Positions 1 through 36,624 of a DNA stretch of 64,000 nucleotides are shown here, one piece after another (the first letter of the stretch is position 1; each line of letters opens with the position of its first letter). A program made the position numbers and the translations under genes. The notes under the pieces were generated by a model, which saw only the letters and a list, made by a program, of their open reading frames with translations, had not been told where the DNA came from and did no database searches. This stretch comes from Phaeobacter sp. J2-8. Lineage in GTDB: Bacteria > Pseudomonadota > Alphaproteobacteria > Rhodobacterales > Rhodobacteraceae. The stretch lies in NCBI RefSeq assembly GCF_022867865.1, contig NZ_JALIEC010000004.1, positions 372,001 through 436,000 on the forward strand, read 5' to 3'.

Positions 1-340
1 AGGAGAGATCACCTTCCCATCGGCGAAAGTAGGCAACGGGAACACCCAAAATCATAGAAATTTTGAAAGGCCCGTGAACATTCGGATGATAGTGGGATTT
101 CGCTTGCGTTTCCAGTTCGCGAAGGAAGCGAAGGGCTCGTTCTCTTGATTGAATTGGCTCTTTCTTTTTGGGGTATTTTGCCACGATATAGCGGGGACTA
201 ACATTCGCGCCGTTGTCCAAGTATACAATCGCTCCAGAAAAGCCTTCACCAGTTCCGATGGCTTTTTGAGCTTTGCCGTGGAAAGCAATTAGGTCATTCC
301 TCTTCTCTGCTGGGAGCTCGTCGAAGGCCGATGCTATCAT
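1..340 (-). CDS. Protein-kinase-like protein, N-terminal part (runs off window)
   Basis: An open frame begins at ATG 340-338 and stays open to the window edge (113 codons), so the C-terminal part lies outside. A GAGGA Shine-Dalgarno sits about 9 nt before the ATG. The visible residues read like the N-lobe of a Ser/Thr protein kinase: a glycine-rich loop GTGEGFSG at residues 29-36, a VAK motif with Lys55 in the position of the ATP-anchoring lysine, an alpha-C-like helix with Glu75/Glu77, an HPNV motif at 85-88, and a hinge-like YFRRWEGDL at 104-112. The HRD and DFG motifs would lie off-window, so activity cannot be judged. The gene follows the phase-variable small gene at 374-650 by 33 bp on the same strand, suggesting one transcript. 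Base composition is less GC-rich than the rest of the window. Kinase assignment is inference from motif pattern; a general nucleotide-binding protein is the alternative. Confidence 0.6.
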   Translation of the reverse strand, partial: MIASAFDELPAEKRNDLIAFHGKAQKAIGTGEGFSGAIVYLDNGANVSPRYIVAKYPKKKEPIQSRERALRFLRELETQAKSHYHPNVHGPFKISMILGVPVAYFRRWEGDLS

Positions 341-448
341 ATAGGGAAGTCCTCATAGTTCATATTTTAATGCTTATTCACCGCCATCTCCGCCACACGC
401 TACGTCATTTCCGGCACCAAATCCGGTAGTTTCACAAGTCGTTGCCTG

Positions 449-461
449 CCCCCCCCCCCCC
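449..461. repeat. 13-bp homopolymer (G on the minus coding strand)
   Basis: Thirteen consecutive C on the plus strand inside the small exported-protein gene. Tracts of this length slip readily during replication, and here a change of one base fuses or splits the reading frame. It could also be a sequencing or assembly miscount; the read-level length distribution would decide. Confidence 0.9.
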
Positions 462-593
462 ACACGAAATAGTATTACCCTCACCATTGCCCGTTGTTTC
501 ACATGTTGTGGCACCGGCTGAAGCAAAAGTGGCGAACTCACCTGTGGCGAATGCGATTGCAGTTGTGAAAGTAAGTATTCTCCTGAAGACCTC

Positions 594-638
594 GATTGCT
601 GATTGCTGATTGCTGATTGCTGATTGCTGATTGCTGAT
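594..638. repeat. Tandem heptamer GATTGCT, about 6.4 copies
   Basis: Six perfect copies of GATTGCT plus a partial GAT. It lies inside the 5' coding part of the small exported-protein gene, where three repeat units encode seven residues (SNQQSAI on the minus strand). Because 7 is not a multiple of 3, loss or gain of one unit changes the reading frame, so this is a second potential phase switch in the same gene. Confidence 0.9.
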
Positions 639-644
639 CTTCGT

Positions 645-663
645 GAACACTTATTGAGTGTTC
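645..663. promoter_or_regulatory. Inverted repeat at the start of the small exported-protein gene
   Basis: GAACACT-TATTG-AGTGTTC: 7-bp perfect arms around a 5-nt loop, overlapping the proposed GTG start (648-650). It could be an operator or an mRNA hairpin covering the start codon. Only the symmetry is directly seen. Confidence 0.5.
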
Positions 664-1155
664 GTTAGATCTTTATCTCGAACATGACTTTGTTGCGCAA
701 ATACCCCTTTGGGTTTGCTTCTCGTTATAGCTAACAAAATTAGCCGATGGCAACAATGAGTTGGATTCCAAGAGCGGTGAAGCCCCTGAGAGTGGCGGAA
801 CGGATTTCAACCTTCATGACCTGCCGATGAAGTCGTGCGCACTAAGGAGATGGCCCATTAGTTTCAAACAGTTCATCTTTGTGTCGACCCGGCTTCGGCT
901 GTGGTATCCCGCCAAGCGTCGCCGAAGCGCGCGGACGAAATGCGCAGAGTACCGTAAGCTCTCCTTTAGGGCACGGTTGAAAAACGGCAAATTTCCGGCT
1001 GCCAAAAACTCCGTTCAAAACCTAAGCGGTTGTTGAACGTTTTTGATTGTCCTTCGGTAGCGGACATCCGTACACCATGCAGCATCTGCCAAAATGGACT
1101 CGAAACCGACGTTCCCCCCTTTTTGACGGTCGCGATCATCAACACATCCGGTAAG
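651..1155. other. Intergenic stretch without a credible gene
   Basis: Open frames here are short and have no recognisable motifs or Shine-Dalgarno sequences. A weak hairpin (GCAAA ... CCC-CTTT-GGG-TTTGC) lies at about 697-718, upstream of the minus-strand small gene. Nothing else could be identified. Confidence 0.6.
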
Positions 1156-1180
1156 GGTGCCGCCCAACGCGGGCGGCACC
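1156..1180. terminator. Hairpin downstream of tctC
   Basis: GGTGCCGCCC, loop AACGC, GGGCGGCACC: a perfect 10-bp GC stem located 26 bp past the tctC stop codon. It is the likely end of the minus-strand tctBAC transcript, although no strong U tract follows. Confidence 0.7.
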
Positions 1181-1205
1181 TATTCCGAACCACCGGTTGA
1201 ACGGA

Positions 1206-2183
1206 TCACTTTTCGAGGTGTTCGCTCAGCACGGTTTTCAGGTCGGTGACCTCTTGCGGCATGCGGCCACAGAAGGCTTCGGCGCTTTCCTGATAGGGCG
1301 CAAAGCCAAAGGTCTGGGCGAAATCACCAAAGGTGTCGCTTTCCAGCGCCTCGGTGACCAGGCCTTCCAGCTTGGTCTGTACATCGGCCGGGACGCCCGC
1401 GGGCAAGAGAATGCCGCGCACCAGGGCCACGTCGATCTCGGCGCCCCAATTGCGAATATGTGGCGTCTCGCGTGCGGGGGGATAGGTGATGCCCTGCATG
1501 TCGCCCGCCGCCGCCAGCACGGTCAGATCGCCTGCCGCCACTTCGTTCAGCAGAACAGGCGAGATGATGACGCCAGCGTCGACCTGATTGGCCAGGATCG
1601 CCTTTTTCAACGGACCGCCGCCGCCAAAGGACACAATGCGGAAATCCGCCTCATTCACGCCGCGCACGGTCGAGGCGACAAAGTCGGTGGCCGAGATCTT
1701 GCCCGTGATGCCAAGGGTCAATGTGCCGGGGTTGGCCTTGGCCTCTGCCAGGAAATCGCCCAGATCGCTGTATCCGTTGTCGCTATGCGCCAGCATCCAG
1801 ACCGGCGTGTTGAACACCGCCCCGGCGCAAGAAAAATCCGCCAGCTCATATGGTGGGTTTTCCCGGAACGCGATTGGCGCCGTCACGTCGGTCGTGCCGT
1901 TGATCGCCAGCGTATAGCCATCGGGCGCGGCCTTTTTCAAGGCAAGCATGCCGTTGATGCCGGCCGAGCCGGGGACGTTTTCGACCACCACAGGCTGGCC
2001 AGAGACTTCCTCTAGCGCGGCGGCAAAGGCGCGGCCGATACTGTCGCTGCCGCCGCCGGGTTTATAGGGCACGATCAACCGGATCGTGTCGCTGGGATAG
2101 TCCTGGGCTGTTGCCGCCCCGAGGGACAGGGTCAGACCAAGGGTGGTCGCCGCAAGGGTGCGGGTCAGGGTTGAGAGTTTCAT
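1206..2183 (-). CDS. tctC: TTT-family periplasmic solute-binding protein (TctC/Bug)
   Basis: A 325-residue Bug-family receptor of the tripartite tricarboxylate transporter, acting in the periplasm to deliver a carboxylate-type ligand to TctAB. It has a clear Sec signal peptide ending near residue 26 (GAATAQDYPS), the family-typical IRLIVPYKPGGGSD segment after it, and the usual length of about 320 residues. An AAAGGAGGAG Shine-Dalgarno precedes the ATG. It lies 25 bp after tctA in the same direction, and a strong hairpin follows it. The specific ligand cannot be told; proximity to the divergent hyuAB genes suggests a hydantoin-, oxoproline- or related cyclic-amide-derived carboxylate. The order on the transcript is tctB-tctA-tctC, with the receptor last rather than first. 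Confidence 0.93.
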   Translation of the reverse strand: MKLSTLTRTLAATTLGLTLSLGAATAQDYPSDTIRLIVPYKPGGGSDSIGRAFAAALEEVSGQPVVVENVPGSAGINGMLALKKAAPDGYTLAINGTTDVTAPIAFRENPPYELADFSCAGAVFNTPVWMLAHSDNGYSDLGDFLAEAKANPGTLTLGITGKISATDFVASTVRGVNEADFRIVSFGGGGPLKKAILANQVDAGVIISPVLLNEVAAGDLTVLAAAGDMQGITYPPARETPHIRNWGAEIDVALVRGILLPAGVPADVQTKLEGLVTEALESDTFGDFAQTFGFAPYQESAEAFCGRMPQEVTDLKTVLSEHLEK

Positions 2184-2208
2184 GGCTCCTCCTTTGGATG
2201 GGTTGGTA

Positions 2209-3738
2209 TCAGTCGGCAGATTTGGCGGCGGTCATGGCGGACCGCGCCGATGTGTCGGGTCGCAGGCGCAGGGCGGTGCGGATTTCCTTGGCCAGCAGCA
2301 GGGCGATCACCGCGACCAGGCAGATACGCGGCCAGGTGTTGACAAAGGTCATCCAGTCGCCGCCCGAAAGTGCCAGCCCCAGCCGGACGTTGTATTCGAT
2401 GATCGGCCCCAGGATGGCGCCCAGCACAATGGTCACCACCGGAAAGCCGCGTTTTTCCAACAGGAAGCCGATGATGCCAAAGATGATGGCGACATAGACC
2501 GGAAAGACCGAATTCGCGCTGGAATAGGCACCGATAGAGGCAAAGACCAGGATGAAGGGAAACAGCACATTGCGGTCGCGTTGCAGCACAAAGACAAAGG
2601 CCCGGATCGCGCCCATGGCGATAAAGAACATGAAGATCGTCGCGATCAGCAGCGCCGCCAGCAGCCCGTAAACGATATCGGGATCGTCGCGCATCAGGCT
2701 GACGCCCGGGGTCAGCCCGTGCATGATCATCGCGCCCAGCATGATCGCGGTCGATCCGTCGCCGGGAATGCCCAGTGTCAGCATCGGCACCAACGCGCCG
2801 CCGGTTGTGGCGTTGTTCGACGCTTCGGGCGTGATGATGCCCTCGGGGACGCCGGTGCCAAACGCCTCGGGTGGGGGATTTTTCGAGGAATTCTTGACCG
2901 TGGCATAGCTGAGCCAGGTGGAGCCATCAGCCCCGACACCGGGGATGGCGCCGATGACCAGCCCATACAGGCTGCCGATGGACCATGCCCGCCAGCGGCG
3001 GAACAGGTCGCCGGGGCGCGGCACCCGCAGCGTGACATCCTTGGTCAGCAACTGGCTGCCCTTTACGGTCAGGGAAATGTCGGCAAAGACCACGGCAAAG
3101 CCGAAGATCCCCACCAGCACGGCCGCAAAGGGAATGCCGCTTTCCAGCGAGGTCAGGCCAAAGGTATAGCGCATGACCGCGTCCTGCCCGTCGATCCCGA
3201 CCGAAGAAACCAGCAGCCCCAGCAGCACCCCGGACAGCCCCTTGACGATGGAACCCCGCGCAAAGGCCGCCACCATGATCAGCCCGGCAATACCAATCAG
3301 CGCAATGTCCGGCGGCGCGGAATAAAGCGCGATCCCGGCAATCAACGGAATGGCAACCACCGCACCGATCCAGCCCAGAATGCCGCCCACGGTTGATGAC
3401 ATGGTGGCATATCCCAGCGCCAGCCCGGCCTCGCCGCGCATCGCCATCGGATAGCCGTCAAGCGCCGTACAGGCCGATGCCGGTGTGCCCGGCGTGCGCA
3501 ACAGGATGGCCGAAAACGACCCGCCCAGCTTGGTGCCCACGTAGATGCCGATCATCAGCGCAAAGGCGGGCATCGTTTCCATGGTAAAGGTGATGGGCAA
3601 GAGCACGATGATCGCCATCGGCGACGACAACCCCGGCAACGCACCCACAAGGATGCCAAGCGCGGTGCCCGCAAAGAGCAACAACAGGTTGGTGAGGCTG
3701 CCCATCTCGGCAAAGCCCTGAAACAATCCAGCTAACAT
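2209..3738 (-). CDS. tctA: TTT-family large permease subunit TctA
   Basis: A 509-residue polytopic inner-membrane protein with about 12 hydrophobic segments, matching the large subunit of tripartite tricarboxylate transporters in length and sequence. The conserved N-terminal GILVGALPGLSSPMA and the central LGIPGDGSTAIMLGAM regions, family hallmarks, are present. It starts one base after the tctB stop codon and so is very probably translationally coupled to it. Together with TctB it forms the cation-driven channel that accepts ligand from TctC. Confidence 0.95.
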   Translation of the reverse strand: MLAGLFQGFAEMGSLTNLLLLFAGTALGILVGALPGLSSPMAIIVLLPITFTMETMPAFALMIGIYVGTKLGGSFSAILLRTPGTPASACTALDGYPMAMRGEAGLALGYATMSSTVGGILGWIGAVVAIPLIAGIALYSAPPDIALIGIAGLIMVAAFARGSIVKGLSGVLLGLLVSSVGIDGQDAVMRYTFGLTSLESGIPFAAVLVGIFGFAVVFADISLTVKGSQLLTKDVTLRVPRPGDLFRRWRAWSIGSLYGLVIGAIPGVGADGSTWLSYATVKNSSKNPPPEAFGTGVPEGIITPEASNNATTGGALVPMLTLGIPGDGSTAIMLGAMIMHGLTPGVSLMRDDPDIVYGLLAALLIATIFMFFIAMGAIRAFVFVLQRDRNVLFPFILVFASIGAYSSANSVFPVYVAIIFGIIGFLLEKRGFPVVTIVLGAILGPIIEYNVRLGLALSGGDWMTFVNTWPRICLVAVIALLLAKEIRTALRLRPDTSARSAMTAAKSAD

Positions 3739-34195: not shown

Positions 34196-36624
34196 AGGAT
34201 GAAGTTGCTTTCGTCAAGGTCGTCAGCCTTGACGGATTTGATCAGAAGCGTGTCACCCTCTTTGCCGCCGCTCAGCCCGCTGAGGTCGATCTCGGTGGCC
34301 CAGCCCTTGTCCACCATCACGGTTTCCAGGTCGGAATATTCCAGCCCATAGGCCGACAGGTCGATCTGATCATGGCCGACCTCGAAATCGTGGATCATGT
34401 CCTTGCCACTGCCCCCGGAGACGACAAAGGTGTCGGACGACCCGTCTTTCCACCAATTGCCGCCCCACATGTGGTCATTGCCCTCGCCGCCGGTGATCGT
34501 GTCAGACCCGCTGCCGCCGACAATCTTGTCGTTCCCCGCGCCGCCGTCGACATTGTCATTGCCGGAGCCGGCATTCAGGTAATCGCGGCCTGCGTTGCCG
34601 GACAGGGCGTCATCACCGTCCTGCCCCATCAGGCTGTCGTTGCCGGTGCCGCCGGACATCTGGTCGTCGCCGGTGCCGCCGCTCATGTTGTCATTGCCGC
34701 TGTCGCCGGACATTTCATCGTCGCCGGAACCACCGTGCAGCGTATCGTTGCCCGCATTGCCGAACATCTTATCGTCGCCGTCGCCGCCCCGCAGTTTGTC
34801 GTTGCCGCCGATATCCGCGGCAAGTTCGGGGCTGCGGATCAGAACCGCGGCACTGGCATCGACCTCTGAAAATGCATCCATCGACCGGGGATCGACCGCC
34901 CCGTCGTTTGATCCGGTTGCCTCGGCTTCGGCCATGAATTCGGTATAGGCCTGGCCAGTTTGCCAATCCACATTGACCTTGAAAATGCCGCCTTGGGCTC
35001 CGGTTGATGCATCAAGGTCATGGTCACCACGGTTCAACCCGTAATAAAGATTGCCGTCGCCATCGAGGAAAACCGCGCCATAGGCGCCCTTGGCCATGCC
35101 GCTTTCCATCGTGTCGCCGTACAGCGTGCCGGTGATTTCGACCGAATTCACCACCGGATCGCCGCCGTTTGCAACATCGCTGATGTCGATCTGATAGACC
35201 TTGCCCGCGCCGCCGTTTGTCGACGGCGGCATCACGGAATAAAACATGCCATCGGCCGCGTTATAGGAAATGTCGCACATGTTGCCGTGAAACATGCCGT
35301 CCGGCAGGTCGACATGGGTGACCACCGGATTGCCATTGGCGTCAAGGGTGTCGACGTCGATCACCTTGACCTCATTCAGGCTTGCGTTGAAGGCCCAGAG
35401 GTTGCCGCTGTCGTCGAAATCGCCGGTATAGCTGCCGGTTCCGGCCTCGCCGATGCGATAGACCGACCCGGAGGCATCGATCATCACCAGATCCTTGGCG
35501 CTGACCGCGTTGCCCAAGGCATCCGTGCCGCCGCTCTTGGCGACGCCATAGATCAGGTCGTCTTCCTGATTGAAGCCGATGGAATTGATCTTGAATCCGG
35601 GATCGTCGCCGACATTGGTATATTCGCTGGCGGCGGTGTCAAAAACCTTTAGCTGGCCATCTATCACCTGATACAGTTTGGCCTGACCGGCAACAAAGGC
35701 ATCCACCGCAACTGGTTCGCCGCCAATGATCATTTCCTTGTCATAGGTGAGGATCGCACCCGGATTTTCCGCGGGCTCCGGGTCGACCGTGCGGAAGGTC
35801 AATTCACCGTTTTCGCCCGTGCCGGTCACCTGGACCTCGTGGGTTTGATAGACGCCGGAGTTGACCGAAACGGTGTCGACGACCTCGCCGTTCCACAGCA
35901 CCTCAATCTCGCCGGTTGTATGACCAGCGGCAAGGTTGGCCGCGACCTCAAAGGAAATCGTGTATTCCTGACCCGCCTCTGTTCCCGCCGACTGAGAGAT
36001 CGCCGACGTGCCGTCGACGTCGTCGGTCATGGTCCATCCGCCCTTTTCGGCCAATTGCGACATGGTCTGCAGACCGTCGAGCGCGCCGCCAAGCAGGTTG
36101 TTGCCCGCTGTATCTCCAAAAATGATGTCATCGCCGCTTCCGGCGTTAACCGTATCATTGCCCTGACCCCCTTCGGCGTAATCGTCGCCGCGTTCAAGGT
36201 TCAGCAGGTCGTGACCATCGTCACCAAAGGCGCGATCGTTCCCCTGGCCTGCGTTGACAATGTCATCTCCGGCCCCGGCAAGCAGGGTGTCATCACCGCC
36301 GTTCCCAAGCAGGACATCATTGCCGGCCCCGGTCTTGATCAGGTCGTTGAACGACCGGATGTCGCCAAGGTCGCTGACAACCACCGCATCCGGGTCATAG
36401 ACCCATTTCCCGTTCACATAGTTCCATTCATTGCCGACCATGTCCCCGGCGGCCAGATCGTTGCCGTGCCCGGTGCTGATCGTGTCGTCACCGGCATGGC
36501 CGTTGACCTTGTCGACCTCTGCCAGCTTTTCTGACAGGGACTTGGAACCGCCGTTCGAAAACCCGTCTGTAATTGCATCGTTGTTGGTCGTACCAACAAA
36601 TGTATTGTCGTGTTCACTCACCAT
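34192..36624 (-). CDS. RTX (hemolysin-type calcium-binding) secreted protein
   Basis: An 810-residue acidic protein, probably exported by the T1SS encoded downstream. GGxGxDxLx nonapeptide repeats occur in two blocks: about residues 30-170 and 620-740 (GGDGDDKMFGNAGNDTLHGG-type). Between them lie a jelly-roll-like segment (about 185-300) and a roughly 300-residue region (310-600) with repeated YxxGVAKSG/GNLWAFN/GNLYYGLN-like blades, suggesting a beta-propeller. There is no N-terminal signal peptide, and the C-terminus ends in a hydrophobic FIL typical of T1SS signals. Calcium binding outside the cell would trigger folding. Enzymatic activity was not recognised; adhesin or surface-layer roles are possible. 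Confidence 0.9.
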   Translation of the reverse strand: MVSEHDNTFVGTTNNDAITDGFSNGGSKSLSEKLAEVDKVNGHAGDDTISTGHGNDLAAGDMVGNEWNYVNGKWVYDPDAVVVSDLGDIRSFNDLIKTGAGNDVLLGNGGDDTLLAGAGDDIVNAGQGNDRAFGDDGHDLLNLERGDDYAEGGQGNDTVNAGSGDDIIFGDTAGNNLLGGALDGLQTMSQLAEKGGWTMTDDVDGTSAISQSAGTEAGQEYTISFEVAANLAAGHTTGEIEVLWNGEVVDTVSVNSGVYQTHEVQVTGTGENGELTFRTVDPEPAENPGAILTYDKEMIIGGEPVAVDAFVAGQAKLYQVIDGQLKVFDTAASEYTNVGDDPGFKINSIGFNQEDDLIYGVAKSGGTDALGNAVSAKDLVMIDASGSVYRIGEAGTGSYTGDFDDSGNLWAFNASLNEVKVIDVDTLDANGNPVVTHVDLPDGMFHGNMCDISYNAADGMFYSVMPPSTNGGAGKVYQIDISDVANGGDPVVNSVEITGTLYGDTMESGMAKGAYGAVFLDGDGNLYYGLNRGDHDLDASTGAQGGIFKVNVDWQTGQAYTEFMAEAEATGSNDGAVDPRSMDAFSEVDASAAVLIRSPELAADIGGNDKLRGGDGDDKMFGNAGNDTLHGGSGDDEMSGDSGNDNMSGGTGDDQMSGGTGNDSLMGQDGDDALSGNAGRDYLNAGSGNDNVDGGAGNDKIVGGSGSDTITGGEGNDHMWGGNWWKDGSSDTFVVSGGSGKDMIHDFEVGHDQIDLSAYGLEYSDLETVMVDKGWATEIDLSGLSGGKEGDTLLIKSVKADDLDESNFIL

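Follow-up and report, generated by a model that had tools for sequence, protein, structure and literature searches.

A 13-G tract and a heptamer array at a small exported-protein gene of Phaeobacter sp. J2-8: a possible slippage-expanded, decaying copy of a mobile repeat-protein gene

A stretch of 64,000 nucleotides from Phaeobacter sp. J2-8 ("the window", bases 372001–436000 of contig 12 in a draft assembly of 4.8 Mb and 17 contigs) carries near one end the two halves of a gene for a small exported repeat protein, separated by a tract of 13 G. Both halves were shown, by comparison with a protein encoded on a phage contig (P0004 on L258), to descend from one ancestral frame, and the gene is genuine. 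The locus is read, with about an even chance of this being correct, as a slippage-expanded, probably silent and decaying copy of a mobile exported repeat-protein gene. What looked like a noise feature thereby leads to a genuine, as yet uncurated group of exported Cys-repeat proteins found in Rhodobacteraceae-type phage DNA. The locus also provides a test case for simple-sequence phase variation in environmental alphaproteobacteria as against tracts that mark decaying genes or assembly problems.

Layout and genomic setting of the locus

The features of the locus are collated below in window coordinates.

648–650, minus strand: GTG start candidate (GTG650), the only usable in-frame start above the array, the others being cut off by stops; no ribosome-site match
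594–638, minus strand: 7-bp tandem array of 6.4 perfect copies, 45 bp (GATTGCT on the plus strand, AGCAATC on the minus strand)
589–593, minus strand: GAGGT, Shine–Dalgarno-like, abutting the array, four bases ahead of AGG
582–584, minus strand: AGG codon aligned with the ATG of L258; start position by homology to one relative only
516–584, minus strand: signal-peptide-like segment RRILTFTTAIAFATGEFATFASA, its ATFASA identical in L258
462–512, minus strand: repeat 1, ATTCETTGNGEGNTISC, frame A, assigned from the motif and the match to P0004
449–461, minus strand: 13-G tract between the two repeats, where L258 has 6 nt
432–434, minus strand: stop closing frame A (72-codon reading from GTG650)
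377–448, minus strand: repeat 2 and C-terminus, QATTCETTGFGAGNDVACGGDGGE, frame B, assigned from the motif and the match to P0004
374–376, minus strand: stop of frame B, read from the sequence
1–340, minus strand: start of a Hanks-type kinase gene (353 aa; whole gene L004 9279–10340), 33 bases past the frame B stop
765–939, strand unspecified: IS5-family transposase-like stretch, taken as a remnant, 69–76% similar to IS5-family transposase genes of plasmids

Read on the minus strand from 650 to 374, the order is array, hydrophobic stretch ending in ATFASA, ATTCETTG, 13 G, and ATTCETTG in another frame. The tandem features on which the original prediction rested were recovered: the GATTGCT array at 594–638 consists of 6.4 copies with 100% matches, the tract is a single run of 13 C at 449–461 (G on the minus strand), and ATTCETTG flanks it in two different minus-strand frames. 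That 12 G would unite the two motif copies agrees with sequence arithmetic, tract lengths in multiples of three sharing one frame. No other homopolymer in the window exceeds 7 bases. Under a first-order model, about 0.008 G or C runs of at least 13 and about 1e-18 arrays of such perfection are expected in the window; neither feature is expected by chance. A 20-base piece of the array occurs once in the genome of the strain itself; (GATTGCT)4 was found in one of the 385 genomes of the class searched, namely that same genome, and in three IMG/VR stretches.

The repeat gene lies between the kinase gene and the IS5-like stretch, in DNA of 44–55% GC (window 1–1200, 200-base bins) as against 60–66% in 1201–2400. 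Two segments of the flank, 961–1067 and 998–1084, are each about 79% identical to plasmid DNA, the former to parts of a Loktanella plasmid and the latter to Dinoroseobacter plasmids, where it is annotated as 'hypothetical protein'; 24 of the 25 flank-matching plasmid records belong to genera that we take to be Rhodobacteraceae. The kinase gene (L004 9279–10340) is accessory; its relatives occur in a scattered pattern in distant bacteria and on two conjugative plasmids, and its PADLOC matches are generic kinase ones. No close relative of the kinase was found in 100 related genomes besides that of the strain (best outside match 30% over a part), and the nearest relatives, at 62% and lower, are from other Alphaproteobacteria. 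A fixed pairing of the two genes was considered and rejected: no copy of the repeat gene was seen near two plasmid relatives of the kinase or within 700 bases upstream of the kinase in the 14 loci read (of 80 + 3 fetched), so the pairing is not conserved there. A motif scan of the collected loci returned only the strain's own genome and L258. Downstream of the kinase gene, on the same strand, a 72-aa DUF6500 protein is encoded (L004 8719–8937, minus strand, E 5e-29). Far from this locus, window positions 34636–34808 hold a 27/54-bp tandem repeat that could, we presume, encode Gly-Asp-rich, RTX-like repeats.

Relationship of the two halves to P0004

L258 (IMG/VR contig IMGVR_UViG_3300027742_000249, 4464 bases) was found with the gene read through the tract. 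Its ORF 955–1398 encodes P0004, an unnamed protein of 147 aa. Its start resembles a signal peptide, and six 20-residue units follow in tandem, most of them fitting C[ED]KTGHGxGNxVxCGG. In order to avoid dependence on the read-through sequence, the halves were compared with P0004 separately. Frame A matched it with 59% over 39 aa (E 3e-13) and frame B with 75% over 20 aa (E 9e-9), each half being compared alone. None of 2000 shuffles of the respective half attained the score of 113 (frame A) or 87 (frame B), and the five alternative frames of each stretch gave scores of 13–36. When the signal peptide was removed, frame A scored 77 against a shuffle maximum of 74, and the frame A repeat alone would count as weaker evidence than the whole of frame A. 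Since frames A and B match P0004 independently, both halves are placed in one reading frame by descent, as had been predicted for the exported-protein gene and its two motif copies.

The repeats themselves were then compared at the nucleotide level. Between the two copies in the window, 19 of 57 bases differ, and third codon positions account for 12 of these (P = 0.0012 against an even spread). With each copy read in its own frame, 14 codons are changed, 9 of them silently; this third-position and silent excess argues that selection acted on the repeats as protein. Adjacent pairs of L258 repeats gave 43 of 61 differences at third positions and 33 silent codons as against 12 changed ones. Start and tract aside, both halves are open throughout. 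The GC3 values were 0.39 and 0.33, compared with 0.77–0.81 in two nearby genes. It might be supposed that two low-complexity, non-coding stretches share a Gly/Thr-rich motif by coincidence, as the stretch with the signal peptide and the Gly-rich part does draw weak chance matches to PstS-like proteins; given the silent-site bias, the shuffle controls and the fact that each half independently matches the same protein, in the same order, the probability of such a coincidence is negligible.

P0004 resembles the window gene in its signal peptide with ATFASA, in its repeats (C[DE]KTGxGxGNxVxCGG, with C-E-T-T-G in the window) and in its end, NDVACGGDxGx; the sequence of a signal peptide followed by C-x-x-TG-x-G-x-GN repeats is present across both halves of the window gene. 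It differs in that its repeats number six, as against two in the window gene, and lie in a single open frame that starts with ATG; it is free of the G tract and the 7-bp array, and phage genes flank it on both sides. L258 contains no G run of 7 or more, and 6 nt form its linker (from the last Cys of a repeat to the first residue of the next unit). Conservation of the tract or the array among relatives of the gene was thus not observed, L258, the sole relative found, having neither.

On L258, the P0004 gene stands between a DUF6441 gene and, across from it, genes for a tail terminator and a Phage_tube_2 protein; the tail tube is 60–61% identical to tail tubes of Rhodobacter capsulatus phages (ten best of 18 records). 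From this arrangement, P0004 appears to sit like cargo among phage structural genes of Rhodobacteraceae type. Directly beside it, on the opposite strand, lies an ORF of 352 aa with a HExxH stretch (L258 1399–2457, minus strand), which matches phrog_20713 (E 4e-16) and, weakly, a model of the Lit exclusion protein (E 0.11). Carriage on mobile DNA is thus evident for L258; the window offers low GC, the IS5-like stretch and the accessory kinase, and no phage gene was noticed in its ORF lists. The window gene is thus related to one from Rhodobacteraceae-type phage DNA and lies in low-GC accessory DNA.

Further relatives were sought with several queries. The 72-aa protein of the strain's own frame matched nothing outside its own genome at E 0.001 (101 genomes, own included). 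In 394 genomes of the family, searched at E up to 1, some match was obtained in 167 (own included), the best outside one (0.007) being judged noise; loci L152, L153 and L156 were read, one of them being PstS-like. The same protein had no match in plasmids, phages or IMG/VR, and the gene was not found in the three genomes of the genus searched. The read-through protein gave matches in 7 of 385 genomes of the class at E 0.01 (own included); five of the six outside loci were read (L186 was left out) and rejected as chance, L182, L184, L185 and L187 being PstS-like phosphate-binding proteins by reading and L183 a short unrelated frame. A DNA pattern for TTCETTG returned 28 IMG/VR stretches and one outside genome (398 searched, own included), all of which were read and had unrelated context. 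The repeat-family DNA patterns returned 15 and 3 IMG/VR stretches, likewise all read, among which only L258 was real. With P0004 as the query, plasmid matches were confined to six Xanthomonas records (E 0.01 to 0.07, 27–35% identity), set aside as repeat proteins; phage records gave none, and IMG/VR scans with P0004 and the two DNA patterns yielded no second relative. Pfam, NCBIfam and PHROGs gave nothing better than E 0.09 for P0003 and P0004, and Rfam gave nothing for window 1–2400 at E up to 1. Judged by its sequences, the gene family is a real but uncurated one of small exported proteins with a predicted signal peptide and repeats of about 20 residues carrying two Cys each.

The 5' end, the G tract and their possible origins

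In an ungapped alignment from LT onward, the ATG of L258 fell on the AGG of the window (584–582). GAGGT stands four bases before this AGG and TAAGGA five bases before the ATG of L258, and the end of the array at 594 directly precedes GAGGT. The best ribosome-site match for GTG650 was 2 nt. Because the aligned start lies at AGG with GAGGT after the array, and GTG650 is without a ribosome site, the array is placed most simply in the leader, upstream of the gene. Its placement inside the gene by the original prediction was accordingly not confirmed, the start of L258 lying 22 codons later than GTG650. A scan of 200–1200 for sigma-70-like promoters found 0 sites, which is uninformative, as shuffles average 0.8. 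The window copy seems to be without a start codon where L258 has one, as judged from a single relative with no more than moderate similarity in the signal peptide.

The decaying copy would have arisen as follows. Gly codons between the repeats would have turned into a G run, lengthened by slippage from about 6 to the present 13, and the last repeat would thereby have gone out of phase; 13 is not divisible by three, so the frame is lost, whereas lengths divisible by three keep it. Expansion by replication slippage is, we infer, the natural reading of the tract. The array would have expanded immediately ahead of the ribosome site. Given an AGG where the start should be, the copy would most likely no longer be expressed as an exported protein and would be a decaying cargo gene. 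Translation from GTG650, if any, would end after one repeat; the present state of the tract would permit at most one repeat, and expression of the copy is doubtful. Speaking against decay, both halves are otherwise free of stops, and the silent bias indicates selection after the repeats arose, perhaps until recently.

Alternatively, the locus could be a working contingency locus, in which the exported protein gains or loses its second repeat as the G tract slips (C-terminal phase variation). The array would then adjust expression or turn it on and off, acting from the leader beside the ribosome site or, with GTG650 as the start, through the frame. Slippage-prone repeats in or next to the gene are present in the form of the array and the tract, both within about 190 bp of one short gene region; the tract falls exactly on the repeat boundary, and the array, at 45 bp a multiple of three, currently keeps GTG650 in frame with the signal peptide. 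Precedents for both elements are described for 3'-end tracts of Helicobacter canadensis (PMC2823697) and for 7-bp repeats in the promoter of hmw1A (PMC8262952). As regards a complete ON state, in-phase tract lengths exist, but the aligned start is AGG and GTG650 has no ribosome site. Moreover, no second strain with the gene was found that could show length variation, and the one relative, L258, has neither repeat. Of the two predicted switches, the one at the G tract is supported in so far as tract length decides whether a frame A product would have one or two repeats; a second switch inside the gene is not supported, the simplest place for the array being ahead of the ribosome site.

Long G runs are also common in the family, which weighs further against a contingency role and contradicts the expectation that such tracts would be unusual in a genome of this kind: runs of at least 11 G were found in 29 of the 61 genomes searched (own included). 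Among 11 run-bearing stretches read from relatives, a crude GC test gave a coding-like frame across the tract in three (L282, L285 and, at the extreme edge of its frame, L281) and in none of the other 8. In genomes of the family, G or C runs reach 47 bases (L275 1501–1547 and other stretches), and several lie at a contig end or close to one. With these points taken together, we regard a working contingency locus as unlikely, though a serious candidate.

The strain's own genome contains 18 G runs of 9 or more. By eye, the 13-G run is the fifth in-gene run, and the other 13 are outside genes or at their edges. A 10-G run (L132) breaks a sugar ABC-transporter permease that is open at this site in L229 and L230, both from the same genus, the own copy being 2 nt shorter there than either (by eye). 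The split permease occupies L132 1363–2455 (own contig 10, about 136809–137901); its frame is of 319 aa as against 368 aa in L241. The permease-site motif was present in 7 of 21 outside loci read and absent from L241, the third locus of the genus. On this reading, both in-gene G runs of at least 10 in the genome are out of frame, which fits miscalls and true hotspots alike.

Under a homopolymer miscall, the tract would in reality be in phase, and the gene would lack nothing but its start. This would agree with the evidence from L258 that both halves belong in one frame and with the permease break at a 10-G run in the same genome, where the own copy is by eye 2 nt shorter. That break could equally be a real mutation, however, and three 9-G runs of the same assembly (L122, L129 and L144) lie, by eye, within long open frames; a miscall would account for neither the 7-bp array nor the missing start. 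A miscall is considered unlikely, to about the same degree as a working contingency locus.

The slippage-expanded, decaying copy is therefore kept as the preferred reading. Its most far-reaching competitor is a two-level contingency locus, in which the G tract at the boundary switches the repeat number of a phage-derived exported Cys-repeat protein and the array acts as a translational switch; this is quite improbable and, if true, would constitute a two-level contingency locus in an alphaproteobacterium. Literature searches returned no report on homopolymeric-tract phase variation in Rhodobacteraceae, on phase variation of contingency loci through simple-sequence repeats in Alphaproteobacteria, or on poly-G tracts in Roseobacter; two papers came up for slipped-strand mispairing at homopolymers in phase-variable Alphaproteobacteria.

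Predicted fold and comparison with known systems

An AlphaFold2 model of P0004, computed from a two-row alignment, showed a strand pair per repeat at a mean pLDDT of 61.5. If intact, the protein would be exported; going by this low-confidence model, its repeats may each form a hairpin with a Cys pair, the hairpins stacking on one another. A surface or secreted solenoid is our guess. The fold search gave no match at E 0.001. The CsgA fibril was among the weak matches (E 2.8). CsgA has repeats of about 20 residues with a GxGN turn; in contrast to curli-type beta-solenoids of this kind, the repeats of the window and of P0004 carry two Cys each, and neither P0003 nor P0004 matched the curlin repeat in Pfam at E up to 10.

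Three systems with comparable tandem features were considered. In Helicobacter canadensis, 3' homopolymer tracts alter the C-terminus (PMC2823697); the likeness is a late tract whose length sets the C-terminal sequence, and the difference is that length variation was seen in reads there, whereas the window is known from one assembled sequence. In Beggiatoaceae, TAACTGA heptamers occur upstream of start codons (PMC4679880), similarly as 7-bp direct repeats within a few bases of the translation start, but in 169 sets in one genome as against a single array of a different heptamer in the window. The hmw1A gene of Haemophilus influenzae is reported with 20 to 24 copies of 7-bp promoter repeats, the number of which alters expression (PMC8262952); it shares with the window a 7-bp array just upstream of an exported-protein gene and differs in that its array is a promoter array with a measured effect on expression, while that of the window has 6.4 copies abutting a ribosome-site-like motif. 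Although neither its tract nor its array is kept in L258, the window locus resembles, by analogy, a combination of the Helicobacter canadensis tract with the hmw1A array.
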